DNA of 64,000 nt from Rufibacter sp. LB8 (GTDB lineage Bacteria > Bacteroidota > Bacteroidia > Cytophagales > Hymenobacteraceae): assembly GCF_014876185.1 (NCBI RefSeq), contig NZ_JADALJ010000001.1:1779501-1843500 (forward strand), written 5' to 3'. Shown in pieces: positions 251 to 62,830 of the stretch. Under the pieces are notes generated by a model. That model saw nothing but the letters and a program-made list of their open reading frames with translations, was not told where the DNA came from and did not search any database. Every line of letters starts with the position of its first letter. Position 1 is the first letter of the stretch. The translations under genes and the position numbers were made by a program.

Positions 251-290
251 CTGTTTTCGGGCTCATTTCTGGAAATGAGCCCGAAAACAG
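251..290. repeat. Dispersed palindrome copy 1 (CGGGCTC type)
   Basis: Perfect inverted repeat with arm CTGTTTTCGGGCTCATTTC and a tiny loop, placed between two convergent genes. It is 7 bases after the upstream stop and 26 before the end of the minus-strand gene. It could terminate transcription from both sides. Confidence 0.9.
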
Positions 291-315
291 GAAATCTTCC
301 TTCAGCAAAATCTTC

Positions 316-1569
316 TTAGATCATGTCTTGCAGCACCAGCGTAGTTTTCAAGGTCTGAAGTTGGCGGCGCACCTGAATCTTTAGCTTTTTCCCGGGCCTG
401 CTTTGGAACAGATGCAGCATTTCCTCCAGGGTACATTCGCCGCTCCTGATGCCGTTCACGCTCAAGATGGTGTCGCCGGGTTTGAGGCCGGCTTTCTCTG
501 CCGGTGAATCTGGCATAACGGCCGCCACCGAGAAAATCTTGAGACCCGGAATAGGACACATAATCTCCATGCCGCTCAAATTGAAAAAGAATGGGCTGCC
601 GTATTTAGAGTTGGGTTTAAGCAGAAGTTCAGAATTGGCATAGTCAAACACCACCGTGAACCGTTGCAGCACGTCGGCGCCCAGGTTGCCGTTGCGGTTG
701 TTGAGCGTGAGCGCGTGCATGATAGACAGTGAATCTGGGAAAGACGCCGGCAAGTTCTGGAAGTTGTAGCTGCCCAGCTGGAACCCTTTGATACGGCCAA
801 TCACGCCATGAATATCGCCGTTAAGTCCACGTCCCAGATAGGCGTTGATGTGGGTTTCAGGCTTTTTCATGTTGGGCATGGTGGGCAGGTACAACAGCAT
901 AGACGCGCTCAGGCCGCTGTCAATCACCAACCGGAGCGGTTGTTTTTCGCCGTTGGGCAAGAGCACCTGCACTTCCACATACGGCTTGTTATTCTCCACC
1001 TGCAAAGGCAGGCGGGTAGCCCTCAGTTTTTTCTTCTCGGGGTAAAACCCTTGTTTGTAAATAGACAGCAGTTTGTTCTGGTAATCAATCTCCACCACAG
1101 AATTTTTGAACAACGAGTGCCCGATCATGCCGTGCACCTCCATGCCAATGCGCAAAGACAGGTTGAAAATATTCTCAGACAGCACCAGCAGCGGCTGCCC
1201 GTTGGCCTCCAGATCACCTAACTGAAACCGGTTGCCCATGGAAGTGAGCGCCTCAATAGATTTGCCCCGGCCCAACCCGTAGAGTTTCAAAGGCGTGGCA
1301 CTGTTGATCATCACGGAGTCATGTTCGCCCAGTTCGGTGAGAATAGCGGTCTCCACGCCGGTGTCCACAATAAAATTCAGCGTCTTTGATTTGTTGATTC
1401 TCAGCGGAATGATGACCAGGTTATGAATGAGCTTGAACGGAATCCGGACTACGTTGCGGTTGCGGGGGAATTTGAACTCGCCGTCCGTTAGCGCCTGCGC
1501 CTGCGCCGTTGGGCCATGGCAGAGGCTTACCACACAGATAAGAAAGAAGAAAAACAACTTGTATCTCAT
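316..1569 (-). CDS. Secreted retropepsin-like aspartic protease with PDZ domain
   Basis: A 417-residue protein with a signal peptide (hydrophobic residues 5-17, cleavage likely after AQA near 25). Two pepsin-like half-domains follow. The first has IVDTG (Asp69) and the second VIDSG (Asp217), so both catalytic aspartates are carried on one chain rather than by dimerisation. A PDZ domain covers about residues 340-405, with DSPAEKAGLKPGD and the VNG strand. Proteins of this build are common in Bacteroidota and probably act in the periplasm or at the cell surface; the substrate is unknown. It is divergent from the M14 peptidase gene, across a 333-bp gap. Confidence 0.85.
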   Translation of the reverse strand: MRYKLFFFFLICVVSLCHGPTAQAQALTDGEFKFPRNRNVVRIPFKLIHNLVIIPLRINKSKTLNFIVDTGVETAILTELGEHDSVMINSATPLKLYGLGRGKSIEALTSMGNRFQLGDLEANGQPLLVLSENIFNLSLRIGMEVHGMIGHSLFKNSVVEIDYQNKLLSIYKQGFYPEKKKLRATRLPLQVENNKPYVEVQVLLPNGEKQPLRLVIDSGLSASMLLYLPTMPNMKKPETHINAYLGRGLNGDIHGVIGRIKGFQLGSYNFQNLPASFPDSLSIMHALTLNNRNGNLGADVLQRFTVVFDYANSELLLKPNSKYGSPFFFNLSGMEIMCPIPGLKIFSVAAVMPDSPAEKAGLKPGDTILSVNGIRSGECTLEEMLHLFQSRPGKKLKIQVRRQLQTLKTTLVLQDMI

Positions 1570-1902
1570 GGGTTCAACAACTTCCGGGTGGTCATGCCTC
1601 GGGGGAGAGGTGGTTCTGGTCTTCTTTTAAAGGGTAAACAAGCACCTATCGGCTTGCCTTTTATGAGTACTGCTGACAAGGCGGGCCTGCCTGGGGGTTG
1701 GCGGGCCCAACGGTAACAAAAAGCAGCGGCACGCAAGTACCCGGTCCTTTTTATTACTCAGTAAGATAGACAATTAGGGCGAAAATATAAAACAAAATTA
1801 TGAGACGCCTGCGCCCCGCCGCGCATTTGCGAAACACTGAAATTGAAACCATCTTGCACCCGTATTCCAAACCTTTCTACGCCTACAATTCTCTATACTT
1901 CC
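1570..1902. other. Intergenic region between divergent genes
   Basis: 333 bases between two divergently transcribed genes, so it must hold both promoters. It includes an AT-rich run near 1745-1800. No clear TAnnTTTG box, palindrome copy or RNA gene was found. Confidence 0.5.
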
Positions 1903-4467
1903 ATGCGGAAACTTTCCTTTGTCTGCGCTTTTGTTTTTTGGTGCCTGGCCTTGCCTGCGAGTGCCCAAACCAACCTGTCTTATTACCTGCCCGGCGGCGT
2001 GACCTATGATGCCAAAATCCCTACGCCCAAACAGGTGCTGGGCTATGAGGTAGGTGAATGGCACGTGACCCATGACCAGCTGGTGCACTACATGCGCACC
2101 GTTGACGCCGCCTCAGACCGCATTACGCTGCAGGAATACGGCCGCACCCATGAGAACCGGCCTTTGCTGCTGCTCACCATCACTTCGGGGCAGAGCCACA
2201 GCCAGATCACCCAGCTCAAAGAACAGCACCGCCAACTCACAGACCCCGCCAACTCCGGCAAACTAGACATCAGTACCATGCCGGCCGTGGTCTGGATGGG
2301 CTACAGCGTGCACGGCAACGAGCCCAGCGGCACCAACGCCTCTTTGCTGGCCATCTACCACTTGGCGGCGGCCCAGGGTCCTGAGATAGAGAAACTATTG
2401 AAAGAGACCATTGTTTTGATGGACCCCAGCATTAACCCAGACGGCATGCAGCGCTTCTCTACCTGGGTGAACGCCAACCGCGGCGAAAACCTGGTGTCTG
2501 ACCCCAACAGCCGTGAGTTTTCTGAGACCTGGCCCGGTGGCCGCACCAACCATTACTGGTTTGACCTCAACCGCGACTGGCTCCCGCTGCAACACCCAGA
2601 GTCACGGGGAAGACTGGCCAAGTTCCATGAGTGGAAACCCAACCTGCTCACCGACCACCACGAGATGGGCACCAACGCCACCTTCTTCTTCCAACCGGGC
2701 ATTCCCAGCCGTAACCACCCGCTCACGCCCGCCAATACCTTTAAACTGACGCAGAAAGTAGGCACGTTCCATGCCAAGGCACTGGACAAAATTGGCTCAT
2801 TTTACTACACAGAAGAGAGCTATGATGATTTCTATTACGGCAAGGGTTCTACGTACCCAGACGTAAACGGCGCGGTGGGCATTCTCTTTGAGCAGGCCAG
2901 TTCCAGAGGGCACGCCCAGGAAAGCGCCAACGGCCTGCTCACGTTCCCGTTCACCATCAGAAACCAGTTCACCACCACCTTGTCAACCTTGGAGGCCGCC
3001 GTGAGCATGCGCCAGGAATTGCTGGAACACCAACGCACTTTCTACAAAGAAGCCGTCAAGGAAGCTGGGAAAGATGGCGTAAAAGCCATTGTGTTCGGGT
3101 CACCAGAAGATGCCATGCGCACGTTTCACCTGGCCGAAATCATGCACCAGCACCAGATTCAATTATATCGCCCTAAACAGAACCTTAAAGTGGGCAACAT
3201 GACCTACACGCCAGAGAACGCCTATGTTGTGCCCCTGGAACAAGCACAGTACAAATTGATTCAGGCAATGTTTGAGAAGCGCACCAAGTTCCAGGACAGC
3301 CTTTTCTATGACATCTCGGCGTGGACCTTCCCGCTGGCCTTTGACCTGGACTACGCCCAACTCAAGAACACCCAGCTTTTAGGCAGCAAGGTTGAGCAAG
3401 TCACCAGACCAACCGGAACCGTCTCCGGAGGCCAAAGTACTTATGCCTACGCCTTGGAATGGACCGGGTATTACGCGCCCCGCGCCTTGCACAAACTGCA
3501 ACAACTGGGCGTACAGACCCGCGTGGCCACCAACACGTTCTCTGGGCCGGAAGGCAAGCGTTTTGCACCGGGCACCATCTTAATTCCGGTGACAGGCCAA
3601 ACGCTTTCGCCTGAATTGTTGTTTGCCAGATTGCAGACCATTGCCCAGGAAGACGGCGTTTCTATCTACAACATGGCCACCGGTTTGAGCGCGCAAGGCG
3701 TAAAACTGGGCAGCCCAACCTTACTGGCCCTGCAGACACCTAAAATTGCCATGTTGGTGGAAGGCGGCGTGAATTACCTGGATGCCGGTGAAATCTGGCA
3801 TTTGCTGGACAATCGGTTTGACATGAAAGTGACCTTATTGACCCAGGACCGCTTTAACCGAACGTCTATCCAGAAATACAACACCTTGATCATGCCAGAC
3901 GGCACCTTTAATGAACTCACCCCGGCGGCGCGCGAGAAACTGCGGGCCTGGGTGCAGGGCGGCGGCACCATTGTAGCCACCGGCATGGCCGTGAAATGGC
4001 TGGCAGACAACAAACTCGGGGATTTCAATTTCAAGGCGGAGGCCGCCGAGAAAAACCCCACCCGCCAACTACCTTACGCCGACCTGGAGAACAACCGCGG
4101 GGCGCAGGAAATTGGCGGGGCCATCTTTGAGACGCGCCTGGACATTACCCACCCGCTGGGTTTTGGCTACAGCAAGCCGCAGTTGAGCATTTTCAGGAAC
4201 ACCAATCTGTTTCTGGAACGTTCGGCTAACCCATATGCTAACCCGGTCATGTACACGGCCAATCCCTTACAGGCAGGCTATATCAGCAAGCAGAATTATG
4301 AGAAAATCAAGAGTTCGGCGGCCATTGGCGTATCAGCGTTGGGCAGCGGGCGCGTGATTGGCATTGTGGACAACCCTAACTTTAGGGCATTCTGGTACGG
4401 CACCAACAAACTGTTCCTGAACAGTATTTTCTTCGGGGGCATCATCAACCCCAATTCGGCCAGATAA
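1903..4467 (+). CDS. Secreted M14-family zinc carboxypeptidase with C-terminal glutamine-amidotransferase-like domain
   Basis: An 854-residue protein. I chose the ATG at 1903 over an upstream one at 1843 because it opens directly into a signal peptide (RKLSFVCAFVFWCLALPASA). The M14 zinc site is visible: His137 and Glu140 in VHGNEPSG, and the third ligand in TDHHEMG (residues 250-256). Family members remove C-terminal residues or cleave D-amino-acid peptides. The C-terminal 250 residues (LVEGGVNYLDAGEIWHLLD onward, with WVQGGGTIVATG) resemble the class-I amidotransferase fold often attached to such Bacteroidota enzymes. It is probably periplasmic or outer-membrane associated and involved in peptide scavenging. 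A palindrome copy starts 17 bases after the stop. Confidence 0.88.
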   Translation: MRKLSFVCAFVFWCLALPASAQTNLSYYLPGGVTYDAKIPTPKQVLGYEVGEWHVTHDQLVHYMRTVDAASDRITLQEYGRTHENRPLLLLTITSGQSHSQITQLKEQHRQLTDPANSGKLDISTMPAVVWMGYSVHGNEPSGTNASLLAIYHLAAAQGPEIEKLLKETIVLMDPSINPDGMQRFSTWVNANRGENLVSDPNSREFSETWPGGRTNHYWFDLNRDWLPLQHPESRGRLAKFHEWKPNLLTDHHEMGTNATFFFQPGIPSRNHPLTPANTFKLTQKVGTFHAKALDKIGSFYYTEESYDDFYYGKGSTYPDVNGAVGILFEQASSRGHAQESANGLLTFPFTIRNQFTTTLSTLEAAVSMRQELLEHQRTFYKEAVKEAGKDGVKAIVFGSPEDAMRTFHLAEIMHQHQIQLYRPKQNLKVGNMTYTPENAYVVPLEQAQYKLIQAMFEKRTKFQDSLFYDISAWTFPLAFDLDYAQLKNTQLLGSKVEQVTRPTGTVSGGQSTYAYALEWTGYYAPRALHKLQQLGVQTRVATNTFSGPEGKRFAPGTILIPVTGQTLSPELLFARLQTIAQEDGVSIYNMATGLSAQGVKLGSPTLLALQTPKIAMLVEGGVNYLDAGEIWHLLDNRFDMKVTLLTQDRFNRTSIQKYNTLIMPDGTFNELTPAAREKLRAWVQGGGTIVATGMAVKWLADNKLGDFNFKAEAAEKNPTRQLPYADLENNRGAQEIGGAIFETRLDITHPLGFGYSKPQLSIFRNTNLFLERSANPYANPVMYTANPLQAGYISKQNYEKIKSSAAIGVSALGSGRVIGIVDNPNFRAFWYGTNKLFLNSIFFGGIINPNSAR

Positions 4468-4484
4468 GGAGGAGATATACGCTG

Positions 4485-4536
4485 ATAGCATCGTTTTGGG
4501 GCTCATTTCTGGAAATGAGCCCCAAAACGATGCTAT
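4485..4536. repeat. Dispersed palindrome copy 2 (GGGGCTC type, extended stem)
   Basis: Core arm CGTTTTGGGGCTCATTTC, with the perfect stem extended outward by a copy-specific ATAGCAT / ATGCTAT pair. It lies 17 bases after the M14 peptidase stop. Confidence 0.9.
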
Positions 4537-4585
4537 TATTTTCTTATCTTGCCACCATCTCGTTACCCGCCATTTCACCTTTTCT

Positions 4586-5092: not shown

Positions 5093-5108
5093 CCCTGCCT
5101 TACTGCCC

Positions 5109-5516: not shown

Positions 5517-5594
5517 AACAATTTCGAGGTGCAGTTGTATTACTATTGAAAGAATAAATATTAGCCTAGAGGTAATCTCCATCTTCGCATAGCG

Positions 5595-5602
5595 TATCTT
5601 TG
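5595..5602 (+). promoter_or_regulatory. Possible Bacteroidota -7 box
   Basis: TATCTTTG fits the TAnnTTTG -7 consensus. It lies 147 bases upstream of queA and before palindrome copy 3, which would then be inside the leader. I see no good TTG -33 element. Confidence 0.35.
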
Positions 5603-5618
5603 CAGCGCTTTCCGTTTC

Positions 5619-5657
5619 CTGTTTTGGGGCTCATTTTCAGAAATGAGCCCCAAAACG
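5619..5657. repeat. Dispersed palindrome copy 3 (GGGGCTC type)
   Basis: Arms CTGTTTTGGGGCTCATTT and AAATGAGCCCCAAAACGG, with one mismatch near the base. It lies 103 bases after the DUF2721 gene and upstream of queA. Confidence 0.88.
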
Positions 5658-5748
5658 GAGCGTAACAGACCGTAGAATTCCCCCATTCTAGTTTTCATAA
5701 GGCAGCGGCAGGCCCGGCCTTCCCTCCTGTATTACCGCTTACACATAC

Positions 5749-6981: not shown

Positions 6982-6983
6982 GG

Positions 6984-7027
6984 TTCCGTTTTCGGGCTCA
7001 TTTTCAGAAATGAGCCCGAAAACGGAA
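6984..7027. repeat. Dispersed palindrome copy 4 (CGGGCTC type)
   Basis: Perfect stem TTCCGTTTTCGGGCTCATTT paired across the loop TCAG. It starts two bases after the queA stop and 26 bases before the next ATG. Confidence 0.92.
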
Positions 7028-7053
7028 TTTTCCTTCGGATTAACCTTACTTGC

Positions 7054-8169: not shown

Positions 8170-8191
8170 CTTACAGGCCGCAGCGCAAACC

Positions 8192-8241
8192 AACTCCCGT
8201 TTTCGGGCTCATTTCCGTAAATGAGCCCGAAAACGGGAGTT
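8192..8241. repeat. Dispersed palindrome copy 5 (CGGGCTC type, extended stem)
   Basis: Stem AACTCCCGTTTTCGGGCTC is perfectly paired and includes a copy-specific outer AACTC / GAGTT. It lies 22 bases after the M48 stop and is followed by TTTCTTTTT, so it can act as a rho-independent terminator. Confidence 0.92.
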
Positions 8242-8272
8242 TCTTTTTATGCTGACCGAAAAGTATGGGCAT

Positions 8273-8306
8273 AAAAAAAGGGAGAAGGCATTGGCCCGCT
8301 CCCTTT
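8273..8306 (-). terminator. Rho-independent terminator of the SusC/SusD operon
   Basis: Inverted repeat AAAGGGAG ... CTCCCTTT which, read on the minus strand, runs into a T-tract. It sits 23 bases beyond the susD-like stop. Confidence 0.75.
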
Positions 8307-8328
8307 CTGTTACAATGCTGTTCTGAGA

Positions 8329-14117: not shown

Positions 14118-14160
14118 CCCGTTTTCCGGCTCATTTCCGGAATTGAAGCCAAAAACAGAA
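14118..14160. repeat. Dispersed palindrome copy 6 (asymmetric, degenerate)
   Basis: CCCGTTTTCCGGCTCATTTC on the left and GAAGCCAAAAACAG on the right, an imperfect pair. It abuts the stop of the DUF2911 gene directly and is followed by a separate terminator. Confidence 0.75.
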
Positions 14161-14190
14161 AACCCCGTCATGCAGTTGGCGGGGTTTTCT
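14161..14190 (+). terminator. Rho-independent terminator after the DUF2911 gene
   Basis: AACCCCG ... GGCGGGGTT hairpin followed by TTCTGTTTTT. Confidence 0.8.
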
Positions 14191-14335
14191 GTTTTTGGGC
14201 TTTAGGAGATTGTTGGTATCTTAGACTAAGGTCTCTATATTACCTGGCCTCAGAAAAGATATTATTTCGTTCACAGACGCAAATTGAGGCTTCGCTTTTA
14301 ATGCAGATAAATGGAATAGTTGCGTTTATCCACTA

Positions 14336-15586: not shown

Positions 15587-15626
15587 CCCGTTTTTGCCCT
15601 CATTTTCCGAAATGAGCCCGAAAACG
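15587..15626. repeat. Dispersed palindrome copy 7
   Basis: CCCGTTTTTGCCCTCATTTT paired imperfectly with AAATGAGCCCGAAAACG. It ends 8 bases before the end of the minus-strand symporter gene. Confidence 0.8.
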
Positions 15627-15634
15627 AAAACCAC

Positions 15635-18090: not shown

Positions 18091-18130
18091 CCCGTTTTCG
18101 GCTTCATTTTCAGAAATGAGCCCCAAAACG
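18091..18130. repeat. Dispersed palindrome copy 8
   Basis: CCCGTTTTCGGCTTCATTTT with AAATGAGCCCCAAAACG, mostly paired. It directly abuts the stop codon of the PIG-L gene. Confidence 0.82.
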
Positions 18131-20620
18131 CTATTTGCCCAATGACAACAAATTCACGAACAAACGGTACGCGCCGGCCACTCCGGCGGGCAGTTCCCTG
18201 AAGAACGAGTAACCCGTGTACACATAATGTCCTTTGCCGTATTTGGCCACCAACAAACCGCCGTCTTTGGGCGTTTCGCCGGGGTCATTGGCCGATAAAA
18301 TGGATTCGTACTCTGGGGCCCATTGGTTGGGGAAATACAGGCCGCGCTCCTGCACCCAGCCTTTGAAATCTTCCCCGGTGATTTTGTTCGGCGAATTTAA
18401 CACTGGGTGGTTGGGCTTCAGGAACCGGACGGGCGCGTCTTCCACCGTTACGCGGTCACTGGACAATTTAATGGGATACGGCCCCAATTCCGGCGTGACC
18501 AGACCGTTGCTCACGTTGTATTGCACCACCACCGTGCCACCGTTGCGCACATACTCCAGCAATTGCGGCTGCTGGAATTTCAAGCGTTCCAGCGTGTTGT
18601 ACGCCCGAACGCCCACTACCAAGGCATCATATTGCTGCAGGTTGCCCTCGGTCAGATTCTCCACGGTGAGTAGGTCCACGGTATAACCAATCTGCGACAG
18701 GCTGGCCGCCACCTCGTCACCGGCGCCCATCAAATAGCCAATGCGCTGGCCTTTGCGCTTCAGGTCCAGTTTCACGGCGCGCGCGGTGGCTTCGGGAAAG
18801 ATGGTTTGGGTGGGCAAATGGCTGTAGGCAATGGTTTTAAGTCCCTGCGTAAAGGTCCGGCCTTGGTTAGTGACAGCGGCGCTAAGGCTGCTCTCTGTCT
18901 GGGCCGCCGACGGGTACACCTGGAATGTGAAGCGCTGCTCCTCCCCTTTCAAATTCATTTTAAACGATTGCGCCGATGGTTCCGCCCGCCAGCCGTCTGG
19001 CAAACGCAGCGCCACCTGGCCGTCCAACTTGTCCTGACCGGCGCGCACCCTAACGGTCACGGGCTTGGGTTGGGCATCGGCGAAGACGTACACTTTTTCC
19101 TCAATGTTCACAAACACCGGCGGCGTTATCTCAAACGGACGGTACTGTTCGCCTTCTACGGGGTCAGTGCGTTTGAAAACCACCGGCAACACATAACTGA
19201 ACGGCTGCCCTTGAATACTAAGCTGCACCCGCACCTGGGCGGCGGCCGGGTTCTCTGGCAAGCCAATCAAGGCCTGGTCATTTACCCTGAACATGCCCGT
19301 GGAGCCCGGCACGCGTAACCAATATGGCTGTGAATACACGCTAGAAGCAGGCAAAGTCACGGTGGTTTTAGTGATGAAAGGTTTGCTGGCGGCCAAGGCC
19401 TGTTGCAAAGTGGTGTCTTTCTGGCTGAAGAGATACGAGATGCCGGTAAGCGTGACAGGCACCGCGCTTCGGTTTACAGCCTCCAGGGTCAGGCTCACCT
19501 TTTCGCCAGGCGCGGCGGTATAGTCACGCGCCGAAACTTCCAGGTACAAACCCAGGCAGGCTTTGAGCAGTTGCGCCAGTTCTTCCTGTTTTACTTTTTT
19601 CCAGGTGGAATTAGGGAGTTTGTCTAACGCAGTGTTGATTTTGAGCAGCGTGGGCACCACGGCCGCGGGGTTGGTGGCCTGGTAGTTTTTGAGCGCTTCC
19701 TGCACCAGTTTTCCCACGGCTTCGCCGCCTTTCACGCGGTTCCAGGTGGTGGGCACGCCTTCCAATAAATCAGTTTTGGTTTGGTCGCCAACCAGGTGCT
19801 GGAAATATTCCACGGCCTCGCCGCGGCTGCCGCTGGAGCCAAAACCCTGGCTTTTGTGCATGCTGCGGCTTTCGGCGGCTATTTCATTGTAAGATTTGCC
19901 CAACAAGGGGTTGTACACGCCGGCATCTAAGGTAAGTTTGTCACTGGTCTCAAATTTCTGGCCGGGGCCGTAGAAAAAAGAGGACGTGTTCCAGACCACG
20001 CGCTTCACTTGCCAGGGTTCCACGGTTTTAAGTTGCTCGGGGAACCGTTTGGGGTCGGCGGCGGCGGCAAAGGCCTCCACGGCAATCATGGCCGAGGCCG
20101 TGTGGTGCCCGTGCGTGTTGCTGGGTTCCGGCGAAAACCGGGTAATGATCACGTCTGGCCTGAACTTTCTGATGACCCACACCGCATCGGCCAGAACCTG
20201 CTCGCGGTTCCAGATGGTGAATGTTTCCTGCGGGTTCTTGGAAAAGCCGAAGTCATTGGCGCGCGTGAAAAACTGCTCACCGCCGTCCAGCCTTCGGGCT
20301 TGTAACAATTCTTGGGTTCTGATGATGCCTAATTCCTCTCGTATCTCGGGGCCAATCAAATTTTGCCCACCGTCGCCGCGGGTGAGCGACAAATAGCCGG
20401 TGCGAAGTTTTCGTTCATTGGCCAGGTAGGCAATCAGGCGGGTGTTTTCATCGTCTGGGTGGGCGGCAAAATAGAGCACGCTGCCCAGTACGTTCAGTTT
20501 TTCAAGGGCCAGCCGTATGTCGGCGGCGTTTGGTTTTTTAGGGGCCTGCGCGCTGGTGATGGTGTAGGAAGCCAATACGGCCAACAAAACCAAGACAGCC
20601 CTTAATCTGAGAGAGACCAT
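18131..20620 (-). CDS. Secreted PIG-L (LmbE-like) family deacetylase
   Basis: 829 residues with a signal peptide (residues 1-25). The N-terminal PIG-L domain carries the zinc motif AAHPDDE (His54, Asp56, Asp57, Glu58) and a later SNTHGHH that supplies further ligands. Such enzymes remove N-acetyl groups from GlcNAc conjugates. A large C-terminal part follows: beta-sandwich domains (about 370-590), then a flavodoxin-like segment (GYLMGAGDEVAASLSQIGY, VVVGVRAYNTLERL, YVRNGGTVVVQYN) like that in related Bacteroidota proteins. It is probably periplasmic and involved in glycan processing. It stands alone between other minus-strand genes. Confidence 0.88.
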   Translation of the reverse strand: MVSLRLRAVLVLLAVLASYTITSAQAPKKPNAADIRLALEKLNVLGSVLYFAAHPDDENTRLIAYLANERKLRTGYLSLTRGDGGQNLIGPEIREELGIIRTQELLQARRLDGGEQFFTRANDFGFSKNPQETFTIWNREQVLADAVWVIRKFRPDVIITRFSPEPSNTHGHHTASAMIAVEAFAAAADPKRFPEQLKTVEPWQVKRVVWNTSSFFYGPGQKFETSDKLTLDAGVYNPLLGKSYNEIAAESRSMHKSQGFGSSGSRGEAVEYFQHLVGDQTKTDLLEGVPTTWNRVKGGEAVGKLVQEALKNYQATNPAAVVPTLLKINTALDKLPNSTWKKVKQEELAQLLKACLGLYLEVSARDYTAAPGEKVSLTLEAVNRSAVPVTLTGISYLFSQKDTTLQQALAASKPFITKTTVTLPASSVYSQPYWLRVPGSTGMFRVNDQALIGLPENPAAAQVRVQLSIQGQPFSYVLPVVFKRTDPVEGEQYRPFEITPPVFVNIEEKVYVFADAQPKPVTVRVRAGQDKLDGQVALRLPDGWRAEPSAQSFKMNLKGEEQRFTFQVYPSAAQTESSLSAAVTNQGRTFTQGLKTIAYSHLPTQTIFPEATARAVKLDLKRKGQRIGYLMGAGDEVAASLSQIGYTVDLLTVENLTEGNLQQYDALVVGVRAYNTLERLKFQQPQLLEYVRNGGTVVVQYNVSNGLVTPELGPYPIKLSSDRVTVEDAPVRFLKPNHPVLNSPNKITGEDFKGWVQERGLYFPNQWAPEYESILSANDPGETPKDGGLLVAKYGKGHYVYTGYSFFRELPAGVAGAYRLFVNLLSLGK

Positions 20621-21179: not shown

Positions 21180-21242
21180 AACCGGGGTGCGTTTTGGGGC
21201 TCATTTTCAGAAATGAGCCCCAAAACGCACCCCGGTTTTTTT
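21180..21242 (+). terminator. Dispersed palindrome copy 9, extended into a strong terminator
   Basis: Core GTTTTGGGGCTCATTTTCAG, with the stem extended outward by a copy-specific AACCGGGGTGC / GCACCCCGGTT. The extension is perfect and gives almost 27 base pairs, followed by seven T. It lies between convergent genes and ends 6 bases before the minus-strand gene. Confidence 0.92.
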
Positions 21243-22080: not shown

Positions 22081-22126
22081 TTTCCGTTTTCGGGCTCATT
22101 TCTGGAAACGGGGCCAAAAACGGAAA
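22081..22126. repeat. Dispersed palindrome copy 10 (asymmetric)
   Basis: TTTCCGTTTTCGGGCTCATT on the left and GGGGCCAAAAACGGAAA on the right. The outer part pairs perfectly, with mismatches in the middle. Confidence 0.8.
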
Positions 22127-26484: not shown

Positions 26485-26532
26485 ATTTCCGTTTTCGGGC
26501 TCATTTCTGTAAATGAGCCCGAAAACGGAAAT
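26485..26532. repeat. Dispersed palindrome copy 11 (CGGGCTC type)
   Basis: Perfect stem ATTTCCGTTTTCGGGCTCAT plus its complement. It lies beyond a separate terminator and 58 bases before the amidohydrolase ATG. Confidence 0.92.
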
Positions 26533-30485: not shown

Positions 30486-30541
30486 CCTTTTCCGTTTTGG
30501 GGCCCGTTTTCAGAAATGAGCCCGAAAACGGAAACCAAAGG
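30486..30541. repeat. Dispersed palindrome copy 13
   Basis: TCCGTTTTGGGGCCCGTTTT pairs with AAATGAGCCCGAAAACGGA with a few mismatches. Outer AGCCTTT / AAAGGCT gives a copy-specific extension with a small bulge. Confidence 0.8.
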
Positions 30542-33380: not shown

Positions 33381-33428
33381 AATCCCGTTTTCGGGCTCAT
33401 TTCTGGAAATGAGCCCGAAAACGGGATT
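33381..33428. repeat. Dispersed palindrome copy 14 (CGGGCTC type)
   Basis: Perfect stem AATCCCGTTTTCGGGCTCAT and complement. It sits 22 bases beyond the stop of the minus-strand gene at 33450. Confidence 0.92.
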
Positions 33429-33810: not shown

Positions 33811-33853
33811 TTCCGTTTTTGGCTTCGTTTTCAGAAATGAGCCCGAAAACGGA
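33811..33853. repeat. Dispersed palindrome copy 15 (asymmetric)
   Basis: TTCCGTTTTTGGCTTCGTTTT with AAATGAGCCCGAAAACGGA; the middle mismatches become G-U pairs if transcribed from this strand. Confidence 0.82.
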
Positions 33854-34151: not shown

Positions 34152-34197
34152 ATTTCCGTTTTTGGCTCCGTTTCCAGAAATGAGGCTGAAAACGGAA
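34152..34197. repeat. Dispersed palindrome copy 16
   Basis: ATTTCCGTTTTTGGCTCCGT with TGAGGCTGAAAACGGAAT. Ends two bases before the stop of the MOSC gene on the minus strand. Confidence 0.8.
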
Positions 34198-37333: not shown

Positions 37334-37372
37334 GCGTTTTCGGGCTCATTTCTGGAAACGAAGCCAAAAACG
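37334..37372. repeat. Dispersed palindrome copy 17 (asymmetric)
   Basis: TGCGTTTTCGGGCTCATTTC with GAAACGAAGCCAAAAACGG, 12 bases after the xseB stop. Confidence 0.82.
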
Positions 37373-37408
37373 GGCAAGGCGGCTTCTGGGCGGCCTTGCC
37401 CGTTTTTT
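37366..37408 (+). terminator. Rho-independent terminator of xseAB
   Basis: AAAAACGGGCAAGGC ... GCCTTGCCCGTTTTTT: long GC stem and T-tract, sharing its left foot with palindrome copy 17. Confidence 0.88.
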
Positions 37409-38335: not shown

Positions 38336-38795
38336 TCGCCGTTGTTGGTGTTATCACCAACAACCTGAACTGCGTTTCTAGCTGCTTTTGTGCACGCAGT
38401 TTGCTTTCCTTTCAAATGACCGCTTACTCCTGAGTTTTACAAGACAGCCTTTTCCATAGCCCGGCTCCGAGCGCTCACGGCCGCGAGGCCCCGCCTTCCC
38501 CTCTCGCACTGCCCGTCTTGGCCATTTCTGATATTTGTTTCATCGCATCAGCCATACAAGGCCAACCCGCGAGGCGCTCGATGGAAAGGCTGGAAACGGT
38601 GCGATTCGATAGGCCGTCTGCGCTTTTGGAACCGAATTAATTGCGTTTCGGGCTCTAAATTGGAAATGGAGCCGAAACTGGGATTCGGTTGCAGGTGGTA
38701 GAGACAAGGCACTGCCTTATCTCTACGCTTGAGGTTCCTGCTGTTACTCAAAAGACCTCGTAGCGCGCGCAGCTCCTACGAGTGTCTCCGCTAAA
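38336..38795. repeat. Composite structured repeat, copy A
   Basis: Non-coding. In order: hairpin GTTGTTGGTG / CACCAACAAC (38341-38363); a 60-base block (38396-38455) identical to copy B; a 45-base GC-rich block (38463-38507) identical to copy B; a 64-base variable centre; a 25-base block (38572-38596) identical to copy B; a decayed palindrome; hairpin AGAGACAAGGCA (38700-38724); hairpin CTCGTAG / CTACGAG (38757-38782). AGCCTTTTCC can pair with GGAAAGGCT, and CGAGCGC with GCGCTCG, across the variable centre. It fills the gap between convergent genes. Confidence 0.8.
38643..38680. repeat. Dispersed palindrome copy 18 (variant, inside composite repeat A)
   Basis: GCGTTTCGGGCTC and GGAGCCGAAACTG around AAATTGGAAAT. 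Shorter T run and diverged loop compared with the main family. Confidence 0.6.
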
Positions 38796-38814: not shown

Positions 38815-38848
38815 AAAAAAACGCACCCCATGTCTGAGGTGCGTTTTT
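38815..38848 (-). terminator. Rho-independent terminator of the M13 peptidase gene
   Basis: AAAAACGCACC ... GGTGCGTTTTT; read on the minus strand it ends in a T-tract. It overlaps the foot of palindrome copy 19. Confidence 0.85.
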
Positions 38849-38881
38849 GGCTCCATTTCCGGAAACGGGCCCGAAAACAGG
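38840..38881. repeat. Dispersed palindrome copy 19
   Basis: TGCGTTTTTGGCTCCATTTC with GGAAACGGGCCCGAAAACAG, imperfect. Ends two bases before the M13 peptidase stop. Confidence 0.78.
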
Positions 38882-41249: not shown

Positions 41250-41291
41250 TTCCGTTTTGGGGCTCATTTCTGGAAATGAGCCCTAAAACGG
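41250..41291. repeat. Dispersed palindrome copy 20, supplying a stop codon
   Basis: TCCGTTTTGGGGCTCATTTC with GAAATGAGCCCTAAAACGG. The minus-strand membrane-protein gene ends inside its right arm: the arm reads CCG TTT TAG on that strand, giving the last two residues and the stop. Confidence 0.88.
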
Positions 41292-42218: not shown

Positions 42219-42240
42219 CAGGCCGAATACGTAAAAAGCC

Positions 42241-42278
42241 GTTTTTGGGCTGGTTTCTGGAAATGAAGCCAAAAACAG
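42241..42278. repeat. Dispersed palindrome copy 21 (degenerate)
   Basis: GTTTTTGGGCTGGTTTCTGG and AAATGAAGCCAAAAACAG. It lies 43 bases beyond the end of the minus-strand alkyltransferase-like gene and upstream of the YihY gene. Confidence 0.75.
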
Positions 42279-48781: not shown

Positions 48782-48822
48782 TCCGTTTTGGGGCTCATTT
48801 TCAGAAATGAGCTCTAAAACGG
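48782..48822. repeat. Dispersed palindrome copy 22 (GGGGCTC type)
   Basis: TTCCGTTTTGGGGCTCATTT with AAATGAGCTCTAAAACGGG, one mismatch. Followed by TTTTA; probable terminator of the efflux operon. Confidence 0.88.
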
Positions 48823-48900: not shown

Positions 48901-49460
48901 TTCGCCGTTGTTGGTGTTCTAACCAACAACCTATACTGCGTTTGTAGAAGCTTTTGTGCATGCAGTTTGCTTTCCTTTCAAATGACCGCTTACTCCTGAG
49001 TTTTACAAGACAGCCTTTTCCTTATTATGGCTCCGAGCGCTCACGGCCGCGAGGCCCCGCCTTCCCCTCTCGCGCTGTACCAGCTTCCGGGTGCCTTCGG
49101 CACCCGCCTAGCGGCGACGGAACCTGCTTAGGCGCTCGATGGAAAGGCTGGAAAAGGACCGGGTTGAAAGGCAGTCTGCGTTTTGGGCATCAGCAGTTCC
49201 GCCTGCTCAAAAGACCTCACAGGTTTTCGAAACCTGTGAGGTCTGCGCCATTTGCGTTTCTAGGCTCTGGAATGGAAATGGAGGCGAAACTGATAAATAA
49301 CCTTTCCTAGGAAACATCCCTGCCGCAAGTTTAGCAACAGCGTAACTTGTGGCAGAAGAAAATGTAGAGACCAGGCACTGCCTTGTCTCTTCGGTGGAGG
49401 ACCCGACATTCGCCTGCTCAAAAGACACTCGTAGCGTGCGCAGCTCCTACGAGTGTCTCT
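48901..49460. repeat. Composite structured repeat, copy B
   Basis: The same order as copy A: hairpin GTTGTTGGTG (48906-48929), identical 60-base block (48962-49021), identical 45-base block (49029-49073), variable centre of 56 bases holding GGGTGCCTTCGGCACCC, identical 25-base block (49130-49154). It has extra hairpins absent from A (GACCTCACAGG / CCTGTGAGGTC, 49213-49243), then the decayed palindrome, AGAGACCAGGCA hairpin (49367-49390) and GACACTCGTAG / CTACGAGTGTC (49424-49457). CTGCTCAAAAGAC precedes both of the last-named hairpin types. Non-coding. Confidence 0.8.
49254..49290. repeat. Dispersed palindrome copy 23 (variant, inside composite repeat B)
   Basis: GCGTTTCTAGGCTC and GGAGGCGAAACTG; same diverged subtype as copy 18. 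Confidence 0.55.
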
Positions 49461-49465
49461 GCCAA

Positions 49466-49511
49466 TTTCCGTTTTGGGGCTCATTTTAGGAAATGAGCCC
49501 CAAAACGGAAA
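49466..49511. repeat. Dispersed palindrome copy 24 (GGGGCTC type)
   Basis: TTTCCGTTTTGGGGCTCATT, loop TAGG, perfect complement. It ends four bases before the stop of the YdiJ-like gene. Confidence 0.92.
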
Positions 49512-49514
49512 CGG

Positions 49515-52517: not shown

Positions 52518-52857
52518 ACTACCCTGCCACAGGATAACCAGCTAAACCTTGTGGTAAATAAATAATTTTAAAAAGGTGATTGAAGCATCAACTTTCTTTC
52601 AGGATTGCAGAATCTAAAGGTCAGGATAATCCACACTTTATCCATCCTAAAAGTGATTTCCCGTTTCCGGGCTCATTTCTGGAAACGAAGCCAAAAACGG
52701 AACCAATAACTTATAAACAGATAGCGGTTCAACGCTACACATGCGGGCGAAATAAATGGAATTGCTATCTTGAGAAGATTCTACCGTCTTTGTGAGCCCT
52801 TACTTCCAGTTGATGCAAGCCCCTAGCCTTTCCCTAACGTTGTCTCCCCTGCTTAAA
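52518..52857. other. Divergent region before the A2M gene
   Basis: About 340 bases with palindrome copy 25 in the middle, an unusual position because both flanking genes start here. This may mark a lost gene between them. Confidence 0.4.
52658..52702. repeat. Dispersed palindrome copy 25 (asymmetric)
   Basis: TTCCCGTTTCCGGGCTCATT and GAAACGAAGCCAAAAACGGAA. One of the few copies not next to a stop codon. Confidence 0.8.
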
Positions 52858-59271: not shown

Positions 59272-59299
59272 CAGTTAATCTTGGCTTGATAGGTTGGTT

Positions 59300-59323
59300 T
59301 ATGGAAATGAGCCCCAAAACAGG
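59300..59323. repeat. Dispersed palindrome copy 26 (right half only)
   Basis: TATGGAAATGAGCCCCAAAAC, a right arm without its partner, 28 bases after the A2M stop. Confidence 0.65.
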
Positions 59324-59520
59324 AATTTCACTTTCAGGAAATAAACATTCCCGTAAAAATGTACGGACAGGGCTTGACCTGTCCTGAACGGTGGCCGAAG
59401 CAATCTGTCGGCCATGATGCAAAAAAGCCCCCCCCACCGGGAAAGCGTGACTTTGAAATGCATAAGACAGGTAAAGCCCTGTCCGTACGGATTAGGAATG
59501 CCTGACTTTTAAAGAACAAA

Positions 59521-59563
59521 TTCCCGTTTTCGGGCTCATTTCTGAAAACGAAGCCTAAAACGG
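59521..59563. repeat. Dispersed palindrome copy 27 (asymmetric)
   Basis: TTCCCGTTTTCGGGCTCATT and GAAAACGAAGCCTAAAACGG, 19 bases beyond the DUF5686 stop. Confidence 0.82.
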
Positions 59564-59582
59564 CAACCCACACTTTCACATC

Positions 59583-62033
59583 TTAAAACGAAAACGAGAA
59601 CGTGGCTTTGAGGGCGAAGTTATCAAGTTGCCTAGCTACCGCATATTCACCATATCTATAGAACACGCCCGCGCCCAGGCCCAGGTAATACACGTTCAGG
59701 TACGGGAACCGCACCAGGTTATCCACGCTGAGGCCCGACTCAAAAAAGCCTTTTTCCATGGTTTTGAACGAAATACCTTCATGTTGTCCCATGTTTTTCA
59801 ACTGCCCGAAACCCACATTCTGCGTGAACACCAGCTCCGGCTGAAAGTATTTGTTCTGTCCTTTGTACAGCAGTTTCCCGAAGTTATGGGTCAGGAAAAA
59901 GTAGGCGTAGCGGTTAGCGGCAAATTCATACAAGGCCATGGTCTGGAACCGGTTAGGAATAAACAAATCGCCCAGGAAAGAGCCGGTGCGGCTGCCGTGG
60001 CCGTTGTTCAGATATGGGTAGGGCAGGGTGCCCGTGATCATACCGGCCGCCAATTGCACCTCGGTGCTGCCCATGTTCCGGAGGTAAAATGCGTGGTCCA
60101 CTTTAAGCGCCAGCCGGTGGTAGGCAAATTCGCCGCGGTCAGCAAAACCGTCAAGCCCGCGGCCGTAGTAAAACGTAAACACCGGAAAACTGGGTTTAAG
60201 CACCACCGCGCCTCGGCCAATCTGGGTGTACCGTTCCTGCACCGCCAGCCTTAACCCAATGCCCGCTTCTACCGTCTGGAAATCTGGGTTCGGTTGGCCG
60301 TCATCTCCCGCCGGATTGGCAAACCGGTAGGCGTACCCGGGGTTTCGGGCTTCCTGGGTGAGTGAGGTGCGCACCTGCAAATACTTGAACACTCTGAATT
60401 TTAGTGTTGCCTGTAATTGCTCCACGCGGTCCATTCTTGAGATAATAAAATCGCCCAGACTTTCCTGGCTCAAGGGCAATTGGTGTTCCTGAAAAAAAGC
60501 CACAGAACCGGGCTCTGATACGTCTTGCTGGTAGCGCAGTTCCAGCACCGCCTCAGCCTGACGGTGCAGGTTTAACCCCAGATTTCCGCCGTACTTTAGG
60601 GCATGGTCACCGGTACCATAGGCCACGTATCCGCCCAGTTGCAGGATTTTTGAGAAGTCCTCGTTCGTTTGCAGGCCCAGGCCCAGGCGGTATTGCTCGT
60701 AAGTATTAAAGGAAAACAAGCGGCTGGGAATAAGGTCTACCTTGCCCAGTTTGTAACGGTTGAGCACCAGCCCCTCTATCACGTGCATGTAGGTATTGAG
60801 CAGATTGAGGGTGCCAGTCCCCAGAGAATCATAGAGCCGGTATGTGTTCTGCTCCAGCACATTCAGTGAATCTGCTCGGTACTGTTGCCAGACCGCTTCG
60901 GGCTGACGGTTGGCCAGCGGCGCCATCTGGGTTTTGACGTGGTTGAAATCTTTTTTCTGCAGCGCGGGCGACAATTGCACATTGCTCAGGTAACTTTTGG
61001 TGGTGAGCACCAGGTTGCCGCCACCTAGTTTGTACTGCGTGAAGCCCGCCACCAAATGCAACTGGTCTGGAAACCAACGGCCTTGCACGCGCCGGTATTT
61101 CTGCTGAATCCTGAATTTCACCAGCAAGTCTTGGGCGGCGGGCTCTGCGGTCACGTTCTCAATGGCGAACCCATCTGATGAAATAGCCAGCACGCCTTGG
61201 AGGCCGGCTATGTTCTTGCCCGGCAGCGGCGCGTATGAAATCAAAAAGGTGGTGTCTTGCCCGCGCACCAACGTCTCTTCCAAATAGAAGTCATATTTCT
61301 TCAGGCTGCCCGCGCTCAGGGGGTTCAAAAAATGCTGGTCAAAGAAGGTGACCTGGTCCTGGTAAAAAGAAAACGGCTGAAAATCGGTGCCCACCATGGC
61401 CAGAATGGGGTCTTTGTAGCCGGTCATTTTGTTGGCCAGCACTATTTCCTTGGTGTGGTTGGGCGCCAGAAAACTGCGCAACGTGTAGGACTCACTCACG
61501 AACAAATGGCTCTTTTTAAACAGGCTGCCTTCCGAAGAGGAAGATGAATCCAGGTCCAGAGCATCGGGGTTGAAGCCCTTGAGCGTGGCCACTGTTTTGT
61601 TGTAGGAATTGTATTGAAAGGCGGGCAATTGTTCCGGGTCATGCCGCGCCTTGTGCTGCACCGCCTGCCGGATAATCCTGTGCGCCGGGTTCTGGCCGGG
61701 CCTGACCACCACTTCCTGCAAACCGGTAGCTTTTTCCTGCAGCAGAATGACACGCACTTCCCCGGGCGTAAAGCTGCCGCACGCCACTTCCGCCTTCTCA
61801 AACCCCACCGAACTCACTTCCAAGGCGCAACTAGTACCGGCCAAGCGCAAACTGAAATTCCCGTTGATGTCTGAGGTAGTGCCCACCTGGCTGCCTTTCA
61901 CCGCGATGCTCGCGAACGCCAGCGGCGCCTTGGTCTGACTATGGATCACCTGCCCCTTGAGGAAAAGCCCCTGCGCCTGCGCCAACATCGGCATCAAAAC
62001 AAACAGGAAGGCTACTAAAACGCGTGACTGCAT
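59583..62033 (-). CDS. DUF5686 outer-membrane protein with carboxypeptidase-regulatory domain
   Basis: 816 residues with a signal peptide (residues 1-20). An N-terminal CarboxypepD_reg-like sandwich (about 22-105, GQVIHSQTKAPLAFASIAVKG, then the TTSDINGNFSL strand) is followed by VVVRPGQNPAHRIIRQAVQ and a long DUF5686 region with beta-barrel-like strands (FYLEETLVRGQDTTF, GGYVAYGTGDHALKYGG) ending in ALKATFSFSF. DUF5686 proteins are common in Bacteroidota outer membranes; the function is not known, though they are often listed as TonB-independent barrel proteins. Convergent with the A2M gene. Confidence 0.9.
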   Translation of the reverse strand: MQSRVLVAFLFVLMPMLAQAQGLFLKGQVIHSQTKAPLAFASIAVKGSQVGTTSDINGNFSLRLAGTSCALEVSSVGFEKAEVACGSFTPGEVRVILLQEKATGLQEVVVRPGQNPAHRIIRQAVQHKARHDPEQLPAFQYNSYNKTVATLKGFNPDALDLDSSSSSEGSLFKKSHLFVSESYTLRSFLAPNHTKEIVLANKMTGYKDPILAMVGTDFQPFSFYQDQVTFFDQHFLNPLSAGSLKKYDFYLEETLVRGQDTTFLISYAPLPGKNIAGLQGVLAISSDGFAIENVTAEPAAQDLLVKFRIQQKYRRVQGRWFPDQLHLVAGFTQYKLGGGNLVLTTKSYLSNVQLSPALQKKDFNHVKTQMAPLANRQPEAVWQQYRADSLNVLEQNTYRLYDSLGTGTLNLLNTYMHVIEGLVLNRYKLGKVDLIPSRLFSFNTYEQYRLGLGLQTNEDFSKILQLGGYVAYGTGDHALKYGGNLGLNLHRQAEAVLELRYQQDVSEPGSVAFFQEHQLPLSQESLGDFIISRMDRVEQLQATLKFRVFKYLQVRTSLTQEARNPGYAYRFANPAGDDGQPNPDFQTVEAGIGLRLAVQERYTQIGRGAVVLKPSFPVFTFYYGRGLDGFADRGEFAYHRLALKVDHAFYLRNMGSTEVQLAAGMITGTLPYPYLNNGHGSRTGSFLGDLFIPNRFQTMALYEFAANRYAYFFLTHNFGKLLYKGQNKYFQPELVFTQNVGFGQLKNMGQHEGISFKTMEKGFFESGLSVDNLVRFPYLNVYYLGLGAGVFYRYGEYAVARQLDNFALKATFSFSF

Positions 62034-62128
62034 ACCGGCTATTGGAGACTTCTGATGAAAACTTTGGAATAGAAATTAACCGAGGTGAAGGTACGCAGAA
62101 AGCGGCAGGAACCGCTGCGGACAAAAAA

Positions 62129-62170
62129 TGCGTTTTCGGGCTCATTTCTGAAAATGAGCCCGAAAACGCA
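62129..62170. repeat. Dispersed palindrome copy 28 (CGGGCTC type)
   Basis: TGCGTTTTCGGGCTCATTTC and exact complement, 25 bases beyond the thioesterase stop. Confidence 0.92.
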
Positions 62171-62195
62171 CGCACCTTAGGTCAAATTTAAACGC

Positions 62196-62708
62196 TTACT
62201 TGGCGAGTTTCATCTCGTCGCGCAGCTGCTTTACGCGGTCTTCAAACAAGGCGGGCGTTTCTTCCTTCACCACCACTTCGTCAAAGAGTTGCATGAGTTC
62301 AGGCTCGTGCTGGGCGCGCTCACTTTTGCGCACGTCTATGTATACAAACTTGGTCCAGAGAATGGCTTTGAGTTTCTGCCTGTGCTCGTCTAACATAATG
62401 TGTTCCACCAACATGCTGGTGTCGCTCACCTGCCTGATGCTGGTCCTGATGGTCACTAGTTCCCGCACGCGGGCGGGCTGCAGGTACACAATCTGGTTCT
62501 GGCCCACCACCCAGGCGCGGCCGGTCTTCCGAAAGAACGCATGAATGTCCAGCCCGTAGGCTTCCTCCACCTGGTCTTCGCGCTCATTCTGGAAATAATT
62601 GAGAAACGCGCTGTTGTTCAAATGCCCGAAGGGGTCGCAATGGTCAAACCTGATGCGGGTCTGGCTTTCCAGCACGGCTGGCTTGGGAGTATTGGTCTGG
62701 TCTGTCAT
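62196..62708 (-). CDS. Hotdog-fold acyl-CoA thioesterase
   Basis: 170 residues from ATG 62708; an upstream in-frame start (62744) would add 12 residues of no recognisable kind. The 4-hydroxybenzoyl-CoA thioesterase-type pattern is visible: RIRFDHCDPFGHLNNSAFLN (Asp25, His29, Asn31), then ARVRELVTIRTSIRQVSDTS. These enzymes hydrolyse short- or medium-chain acyl-CoA, or aryl-CoA. Tetramer, cytoplasm. The C-terminal 30 residues are charged and may be a helix. Confidence 0.9.
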   Translation of the reverse strand: MTDQTNTPKPAVLESQTRIRFDHCDPFGHLNNSAFLNYFQNEREDQVEEAYGLDIHAFFRKTGRAWVVGQNQIVYLQPARVRELVTIRTSIRQVSDTSMLVEHIMLDEHRQKLKAILWTKFVYIDVRKSERAQHEPELMQLFDEVVVKEETPALFEDRVKQLRDEMKLAK

Positions 62709-62790
62709 AGTTATGTCGATTGCATGGAGCCTAAAATTGGGCAAAAAACCGGACCTAGCCTAGCAAACCGCGCGTCTTGCCTGGGCAAAC

Positions 62791-62830
62791 CCGTTTTCGG
62801 GCTCATTTCCAGAAATGAGCCCGAAAACGG
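62791..62830. repeat. Dispersed palindrome copy 29 (CGGGCTC type)
   Basis: CCGTTTTCGGGCTCATTTCC and complement; 16 bases beyond the response-regulator stop. Confidence 0.93.

Follow-up and report, generated by a model that had tools for sequence, protein, structure and literature searches.

In Rufibacter sp. LB8, a family of 40-letter palindromes is concentrated close to gene ends; what we show is its distribution, its inherited positions, its species dialects and its fixed geometry. We searched the window (the whole stretch of 64,000 nt that was analysed) with the core letters of the palindrome, without demanding pairing, and detected 26 copies. Both arms were recognisable in 25 of these, with 13 to 19 of the 19 pairs Watson-Crick, and one copy was half-degraded. 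A first-pass annotation of this DNA had reported 29 copies, 25 of them complete or nearly so; our total is slightly lower. The copies are given below without strand, with the number of Watson-Crick pairs.

251..290, palindromic element in a convergent gap, 19/19 pairs
4491..4530, palindromic element in a tandem gap, with a T-rich flank and 6 further outer pairs, 19/19 pairs
5619..5658, palindromic element in a tandem gap, 17/19 pairs
6986..7025, palindromic element after queA, 18/19 pairs
8197..8236, palindromic element in a convergent gap, 18/19 pairs
14119..14158, palindromic element directly before the hairpin at 14149-14198, 13/19 pairs
15588..15627, palindromic element, 14/19 pairs
18092..18131, palindromic element touching a stop codon, 14/19 pairs
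21189..21228, palindromic element in a convergent gap, inside an outer stem of 10 more pairs with T tract, 18/19 pairs
22084..22123, palindromic element with mixed arms, 15/19 pairs
26489..26528, palindromic element, 18/19 pairs
30492..30531, palindromic element, 15/19 pairs
33385..33424, perfect palindromic element, 19/19 pairs
33813..33852, palindromic element with mixed arms, 14/19 pairs
34156..34195, palindromic element with mixed arms, 14/19 pairs
37334..37373, palindromic element that overlaps the following hairpin (37366-37407), 14/19 pairs
38841..38880, palindromic element that overlaps a T-tract hairpin (38819-38846), 13/19 pairs
41252..41291, palindromic element that overlaps a stop codon, 18/19 pairs
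42239..42278, palindromic element overlapping a called ORF start, 14/19 pairs
48783..48822, palindromic element, 16/19 pairs
49469..49508, palindromic element at the end of another repeat (49001-49465), 18/19 pairs
52661..52700, palindromic element, the sole divergent-gap copy of the window, 14/19 pairs
59283..59322, half-degraded copy whose right arm is intact, 8/19 pairs
59524..59563, palindromic element with mixed arms, 14/19 pairs
62130..62169, palindromic element, 18/19 pairs
62791..62830, perfect palindromic element, 19/19 pairs

The exact arm CCGTTTTSGGGCTCATTTC occurred 671 times genome-wide, and the reversed pattern not once. Across 464 kb of the LB8 genome (the window and twenty 20-kb stretches, about one seventh of the total), we found 189 copies, and none when the sequence was reversed; a core-only search gave 192 against 1. 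These counts exclude chance as the source and establish the family as real. The density of 0.41 copies per kb (core search) extrapolates to an estimated 1,900 or so copies in the whole genome. In line with the first-pass annotation, which knew of no named family with this sequence, the window gave 0 Rfam matches at gathering thresholds.

The dyad extends by about three weaker bases on each side, T-rich on the left and A-rich on the right (flanks of 187 copies), and the element is a DNA dyad of 40-46 bp whose half-site reads roughly YGTTTT-n-GG-nnnnn-TTT around a 4-bp centre. The centre measured 4 bp in 175 of 179 copies, a count made on exact cores, since a scan that tolerates mismatches also picks up copies at neighbouring lengths. 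Genome-wide, the pattern matched 1158 times when the centre was allowed 2-8 bp and likewise 1158 times when it was held at exactly 4. Solitary arms were rare (9 of 351 in the 464 kb, two of them inside genes). LB8 has two main arm types, and many copies are therefore imperfect palindromes. The centre letters were TG in 71, CA in 78 and other in 43 of 192 copies, and the TG/CA choice followed no clear trend along the chromosome when 21 stretches were judged by eye, so that we rejected a role as replication-strand marker. Copies stand singly, and their spacing in the window was never below 241 bp.

Placement was examined with gene calls from a home-made script. In the window, 10 copies lay in convergent gaps, 14 in tandem gaps and 1 in a divergent gap, and 1 overlapped a called ORF; 25 copies had an upstream stop codon on one side or both, and in 19 of them it was at most 30 nt away. 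In the larger sample, convergent gaps were favoured (58 observed, 32.8 expected) and divergent gaps avoided (14 against 44.3), with tandem gaps near expectation (99 against 93.9), and only 10 of 189 copies fell within genes. Of 215 stop-to-element distances, 43% were 30 nt or less, compared with 10% under random intergenic placement. The earlier proposal that the palindromes follow stops, in either orientation and often between convergent genes, is borne out. Orientation of the centre relative to transcription in tandem gaps showed no clear preference (CA 48, TG 36).

These observations bear on whether the family is a passive repeat of REP type, that is, a functionless old mobile palindrome spread once in the ancestor of the genus by a putative transposase, whose copies are tolerated in intergenic DNA alone and kept uniform through gene conversion or template switching. 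Numerous extragenic copies in either orientation would fit such a history, and purifying selection on promoters would give the avoidance of divergent gaps, but not the excess of short distances to stop codons. We consider this origin improbable, and the comparison among species provided further grounds.

The family was present in all 16 Rufibacter genomes searched, and none of 237 genomes from elsewhere in the order matched the palindrome pattern; it is Rufibacter-specific and mostly vertically inherited. Relatives were compared in samples of 18-80 kb, and the species pairs are not independent of one another. Five species had similar densities of 0.35-0.45 per kb (core search), and one relative, G009, had only 0.14. 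A recent transposition burst in LB8 is not supported by these similar densities, LB8 standing out only under a pattern biased towards its own dialect. We rejected a habit of the whole bacterial family: in five other genera, sampled at 80 kb each, there were terminator-like palindromes and no recurrent family, and the core search there gave 0, 0, 1, 0 and 0 matches. A second contig was almost devoid of copies and had no own-type arms, which a passive repeat would not predict.

The spelling of the palindrome varies by species, forming what we call dialects; its positions tend to be kept. The distance from stop to element agreed within 6 nt between species in 16 of 33 cases (permuted mean 4.6, maximum 10), and in three close species pairs 22 of 22 copies were in register. 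At variable positions, identity was 0.70 among LB8 paralogues and 0.44-0.53 between LB8 copies and their orthologues in four relatives, as though the spelling were set by a common reader. At the level of sequence, this is concerted evolution at inherited sites, and kept places together with jointly changing spelling suggest that something in the cell reads the palindromes. Copying alone would give the partly uniform centres of LB8 and G005, and the mixed-arm copies resemble half-converted ones; in the relative G006, however, the centre was almost random (0.09 bit) and the arms were conserved, which argues against plain copying. Nor would passive copies be expected to keep their positions, and even their distances, between species, or those in a segment recently shared by G013 to retain another dialect, as they do. 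In distant species pairs, the element was no better conserved than the remainder of the gap, and the kept occupancy of tandem gaps may be a simple consequence of operon structure.

The position after stops is also what would be expected of an RNA hairpin that protects mRNA 3' ends or, where an outer stem and T tract are added, acts as a transcription terminator, from both sides in convergent gaps. At least five extra outer pairs were present in 27 of 267 copies (about 2.3 in shuffles), and 18 of these 27 had four or more T among the 8 bases that follow, a T count made without control. At the convergent junction 21161/21249, an outer stem of differing letters was kept in five species, and compensated changes with T tracts were seen in G007/G013. 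A T-rich stretch lay within 40 nt downstream in the sense direction of 66 of 171 copies, compared with 35 for the mirror image; terminators themselves follow stop codons, so part of this excess is to be expected.

Mismatches gave a divided answer. Over all tandem copies (19 positions for LB8, 18 for relatives), 173 G-U stood against 175 A-C, indicating no RNA-strand bias. Well-paired copies, as selected by a palindrome detector, had 58 G-U to 32 A-C, and T-tract terminators found with the same detector 26 to 5; a post hoc split gave 50:26 for well-paired and 104:134 for poorly paired copies. Within LB8, covariation between the arms was clear only at arm positions 2 and 8, and positions 12, 15 and 19 had fewer Watson-Crick pairs than independent arms predict. 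Two-sided changes in orthologous copies exceeded independence in three of the four closer species pairs (4 against 1.3, 4 against 0.9 and 4 against 1.9) and not in the fourth (0 against 0.2). Covariation between distant species proves little, because both arms track the species consensus, and we rejected cross-species pairing as proof of an RNA stem.

The copies share convergent placement with intrinsic bidirectional terminators but differ in having the T run 5' and the A run 3', the reverse polarity, so that the T run is misplaced relative to the stem. The centre is fixed, whereas the loops of terminator hairpins vary in length; the arm letters are conserved beyond the needs of pairing; and a U tract follows the stem only where an outer stem is added, in a part of the copies. 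Furthermore, the copies co-occur with T-tract terminators and do not take their place. An RNA role is likely for those copies that form part of an ordinary intrinsic-terminator stem. The first-pass suggestion of a terminator or 3'-end stabiliser is partly supported: the outer-stem copies and the bias of well-paired copies favour it, and the reversed polarity, the balanced mismatches over all copies and the co-occurrence with T-tract terminators speak against it as the general mechanism. For the family as a whole, we rate an RNA hairpin only narrowly behind the reading preferred below, and clearly under an even chance.

We tentatively and narrowly prefer, while giving it a probability still short of one half, a reading in which the palindrome is a DNA dyad that marks the ends of transcription units and is recognised in trans by a host factor. 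Such a factor would be a sequence-specific, twofold-symmetric DNA-binding protein that recognises the half-sites, and the dialect would drift along with its binding specificity. Bound dyads might then form boundaries at gene ends, stalling or insulating transcription from both sides, or perhaps organising supercoiling there; some copies are additionally incorporated in intrinsic-terminator stems. This preference is based on the gene-end placement with divergent gaps avoided, the fixed 4-bp centre and few solitary arms, the kept distances, the species spelling, the pattern in G006, the lack of overall strand bias and of a clear centre orientation, and the similar density in five species. Against it stand the strand bias of well-paired copies, the outer stems with T tracts, and arm covariation and two-sided changes beyond what a plain protein site needs, as do the conservation in distant pairs, the sparse G009 and the possible effect of operon structure on occupancy.

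By analogy with the DNA uptake sequences (DUS) of Neisseriaceae, the dyad could instead be an identity mark recognised in DNA uptake or recombination, with biased conspecific exchange spreading the dialects. As described in PMC3630211, DUS likewise have species dialects, high copy number and inverted pairs at terminators, and the second contig with few and no own-type copies, as well as the lack of overall strand bias, would suit such a mark. However, the same paper reports intragenic DUS as common, and DUS also occur singly, whereas the Rufibacter unit is 40 bp, its arms are almost never single and it rarely lies in genes; we regard an uptake-like mark as very improbable. A broader proposal, in which an estimated two thousand inherited dyads form a chromosome-wide punctuation code with a putative genus-specific, twofold-symmetric reader co-drifting with them, serving as factor-dependent transcription boundary or uptake-like identity mark, is in our judgement unlikely. 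No comparable punctuation system in Rufibacter or other Bacteroidota was found in the literature searched.

Extragenic palindromes are usually discussed alongside RAYT transposition. Of 29 distinct RAYT-like ORFs, 8 had a copy no more than 150 nt away on the upstream side and 5 on the downstream side, so that enrichment was absent; for comparison genes, the figures were 59/310 upstream and 154/310 downstream in LB8, and 60/263 and 116/263 in the four relatives. Copies being no commoner there than beside other genes, we rejected a RAYT/REP system, and the one RAYT-like gene found in G007 (L108) has no copy in the surrounding 3 kb, although G007 is copy-dense. Direct repeats in the flanks were near the shuffled level for 1-5 nt, giving no sign of the target-site duplication that would point to a MITE or IS-derived repeat. 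Both results speak against a passive mobile origin.

The earlier comparison with REP/BIME elements survives in the distribution. PMC3733652 describes these (GTAG and CGTC super-families) as high-copy extragenic palindromes of 20-40 bp, mostly downstream of genes, in convergent or unidirectional gaps near the 3' end; the Rufibacter palindrome is similarly short, high-copy, extragenic and near 3' ends. It differs in lacking both an unpaired GTAG/CGTC tag (the flanks of the 187 copies being only T-rich and A-rich) and RAYT enrichment, and in its fixed 4-bp centre, dialects at inherited positions and single copies. With REPINs it shares a persistent, long-inherited within-genome population of hairpin-forming repeats, as described in PMC8049555. 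A REPIN, however, consists of two inverted REPs with a variable spacer, moved by a RAYT, whereas the Rufibacter element has a 4-bp centre and showed no link to a RAYT.

The family is abundant, with no detectable RAYT link, stable positions and dialects changing in concert within one genus, and for these reasons the question of parasite or host signal becomes testable for such repeats. From the sites one can predict the binding places of a reader, the species in which it should bind and its preferred spelling. Bound palindromes could show how Rufibacter keeps adjacent transcription units apart. Should they prove passive, it would still have to be explained how about two thousand scattered 40-bp sites evolve in concert while staying in place.

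Many RAYT-like genes are adjoined by other palindromes. At one such gene of LB8 (L006/L120), a copy of the present family spans the start codon, and its arm encodes the first residues of the protein.

The 40-mers form a real, genus-specific, REP-like family. The host is taken to be a Rufibacter: among named genomes, 12 loci code for a relative of its QueA, 10 of them in Rufibacter, 1 in Sabulibacter ruber and 1 in a Flavobacteriales MAG. When the element was searched for in this genome and its relatives, as the first-pass annotation had proposed, a degenerate pattern was found in 16 of 16 genomes of the genus (this one included), with 26-1158 copies per genome. In the rest of the bacterial family this pattern gave one match each in five of 184 genomes, one of which also had a control match. 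A search across the order gave 0 matches in 237 genomes from outside the genus. Of the 15 other genomes of the genus, 13 lacked exact arms of the spelling typical of this genome (own-type arms) and two had a single one each. Each of the five species tallied had a distinct arm consensus. Density in the core search was 0.41 per kb here and, in 80 kb of each of four relatives, 0.39 (G006), 0.35 (G007), 0.39 (G013) and 0.45 (G005); a further genome of the genus, G009, reached just 0.14 per kb, and 80 kb from each of five other genera yielded 0, 0, 1, 0 and 0 copies. In the stretches L049-L059, 231 kb altogether, there were 89 copies, and the reversed control gave 0. Rfam returned nothing at its thresholds within the window, and among the top-ranked literature matches listed, which leave out most subscription journals, none described a family of this kind in Rufibacter.

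The unit consists of 19-bp arms flanking 2 bp, or 18-bp arms flanking a 4-bp centre. The symmetry continues more weakly outside the arms in extensions of about 3 bp, one T-rich and the other A-rich. A 4-base centre was present in 175 of 179 exact-core copies from all sampled species, and a pattern search of the whole genome (4.75 Mb, two contigs) gave 1158 matches both when centres of 2-8 bases were allowed and when exactly 4 were required. There are two main arm types, alpha (CCGTTTTCGGGCTCATTTC) and a second (CCGTTTTTGGCTTCGTTTC) whose spelling is closer to that seen in G007 and G013; judged at positions 11-12, two alpha arms were present in 70 of 192 copies, one in 90 and none in 32. Solitary arms numbered 9 of 351, and no target duplication was seen at the copies.

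Against the 29 copies first reported in the window, 25 of them complete or nearly so, a core-only search gave the slightly lower total of 26, with two recognisable arms in 25. Among the 25 window copies with an upstream stop, it lay within 30 nt in 19. A 464-kb sample, comprising the window and twenty 20-kb stretches of this genome, contained 189 copies by arm similarity (reversed control, 0) or 192 by core search (control, 1), which extrapolates to about 1,900 copies genome-wide. Relative to the room available, the 189 copies were in excess in convergent gaps (58 versus 32.8 expected), near expectation in tandem gaps (99 versus 93.9) and depleted in divergent gaps (14 versus 44.3); 10 lay within called genes and 8 at stretch ends. 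The distance from element to stop was at most 30 nt in 43% of 215 distances, compared to 10% under random placement. Both the placement just after stops and the frequent location between convergent genes were thus borne out.

The elements had been taken for bidirectional terminators or stabilisers of mRNA 3' ends. If an RNA stem matters, G-U pairs should exceed A-C mismatches on the transcribed strand, and T-tract hairpins without the element showed this (26:5, p = 0.0002). Elements in tandem gaps chosen by their core letters did not (118:107 here and 55:68 in four relatives, in total 173:175), whereas those chosen by the palindrome detector used for terminators gave 58:32, and a post hoc split gave 50:26 in copies with 1-3 mismatches and 104:134 in the rest. 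Taken together, the family therefore shows no clear RNA signature, and its well-paired part shows some. The polarity of the element, T's 5' and A's 3', is also opposite to that of a terminator. On the other hand, 27 of 267 copies had 5 or more outer pairs, compared with about 2.3 after shuffling, and in 18 of the 27 the 8 bases that followed included 4 or more T. At the junction 21161/21249 five species (this one, G005, G006, G007 and G013) retained an outer stem, 5-10 pairs long, whose letters differed between them. In tandem gaps a T-rich stretch lay downstream in the sense direction in 66 of 171 cases and in 35 for the mirror image; part of this excess is to be expected, since terminators themselves follow stop codons. 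The elements co-occur with T-tract hairpins: convergent ends carried both in 44 cases, the element only in 39, the hairpin only in 8 and neither in 21, and for tandem ends the numbers were 23, 64, 14 and 71. In three of the four closer pairs, orthologous copies had more two-sided changes than expected under independence (4 versus 1.3, 4 versus 0.9 and 4 versus 1.9; the fourth, 0 versus 0.2), and non-orthologous G007/G013 pairs likewise showed them (6.0 on average). We tentatively prefer, by a small margin, a DNA-level dyad at the ends of transcription units, which would be read in trans by a putative reader; a 3'-hairpin role in RNA is nearly as likely.

Positions were compared at orthologous junctions in 15 pairs of six species, the pairs not being independent. 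Of the tandem junctions, 77 carried a copy in both species (46.2 expected), 98 in neither and 53 in one of the two, a concordance that operon structure alone could explain. Copies in both species were present at 6 divergent junctions (3.2 expected) and at 27 convergent ones, at chance level (26.5). The stop distance was kept within 6 nt in 16 of 33 cases between this species and four relatives (500 permutations: mean 4.6, maximum 10), in 21 of 46 in other distant pairs (7.3, maximum 14) and in 12 of 14 for G007/G013 (3.2, maximum 8), and more weakly against L049-L059 (17 of 38; 10.6, maximum 18). On alignment, all 22 single copies in three close pairs were in register; for four pairs further apart the counts were 1/5, 4/7, 4/6 and 8/10. 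The close pairs had identities of 0.83 in the element and 0.74 in the remaining gap, 0.87 and 0.82, and 0.77 and 0.70; for the distant pairs the corresponding values were 0.77 and 0.77, 0.71 and 0.71, 0.74 and 0.70, and 0.71 and 0.72.

Scored at 20 variable positions, paralogues in this species shared 0.70, compared to 0.44 (G005), 0.46 (G006), 0.53 (G007) and 0.52 (G013) for orthologues, barely above pairs of copies that are not orthologous (0.42-0.50). Between the closely related G007 and G013, orthologues were more alike (0.75) than paralogues (0.67 and 0.69), indicating that turnover of spelling is slow. G006 was the least uniform species (paralogues 0.58), and G006/G013 orthologues were equally alike (0.575). 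Partly uniform centres, here (the two commonest account for 132 of 192) and in G005, would suit a passive repeat; in G006, however, centres are almost random and arms conserved, which argues against simple copying, and we consider a passive repeat unlikely. An uptake-like signal seems very improbable.

The species-specific spelling is largely a mark of lineage, slow to be gained by foreign DNA, as these observations suggest. The second contig (155 kb; L146-L152) had 7 copies in 140 kb, 0 with an alpha arm; by its sequence it is probably a plasmid. A stretch of lower G+C (L028 1-20000; 0.456), perhaps an island, had 0 copies in 20 kb. The sole exact own-type arm of G013 lay inside a segment 96.3% identical to this genome over 750 bp, adjoining a second shared segment (98.7% over 712 bp); this identity far exceeds the usual divergence between the two species, and the region looks like a recent transfer. 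G015, another genome of the genus, had one copy with own-type core letters. The segments shared with G013 (L003/L092) comprise a RAYT and thioredoxin region. A 1.6-kb part of the second contig resembles, at 76%, a traM-bearing plasmid record of Rufibacter tibetensis, and L028 encodes large proteins, two matching the Por secretion tail and one of these also Peptidase_S74.

The likeness to REP/BIME elements held for distribution only; the defining parts of REP systems are missing. Unlike those systems, the Rufibacter element has no REP tag, and copies were not enriched within 150 nt of RAYT-like ORFs (8 of 29 upstream, 5 of 29 downstream; comparison genes, 59 and 154 of 310 in this genome, 60 and 116 of 263 in four relatives). 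Membership in a REP system was rejected on these two grounds. Ordinary REP-type systems exist alongside the 40-mer family, and the following loci were observed:
L118 and L119: RAYT-like genes flanked on both sides by their own palindromes (GTAGAGACAAGGCAGTGCCTTGTCTCTAC; GAGACGCAATACCTTGCGTCTC).
L006 1465-2088, minus strand: RAYT-like gene with a 40-mer arm across its start codon and first residues.
Window 49001-49465: a further repeat, about 450 bp long, in which REP-like palindromes accompany a degenerate 40-mer copy; similar pieces occur in L013, L017, L022, L029 and at window 38435-38788.
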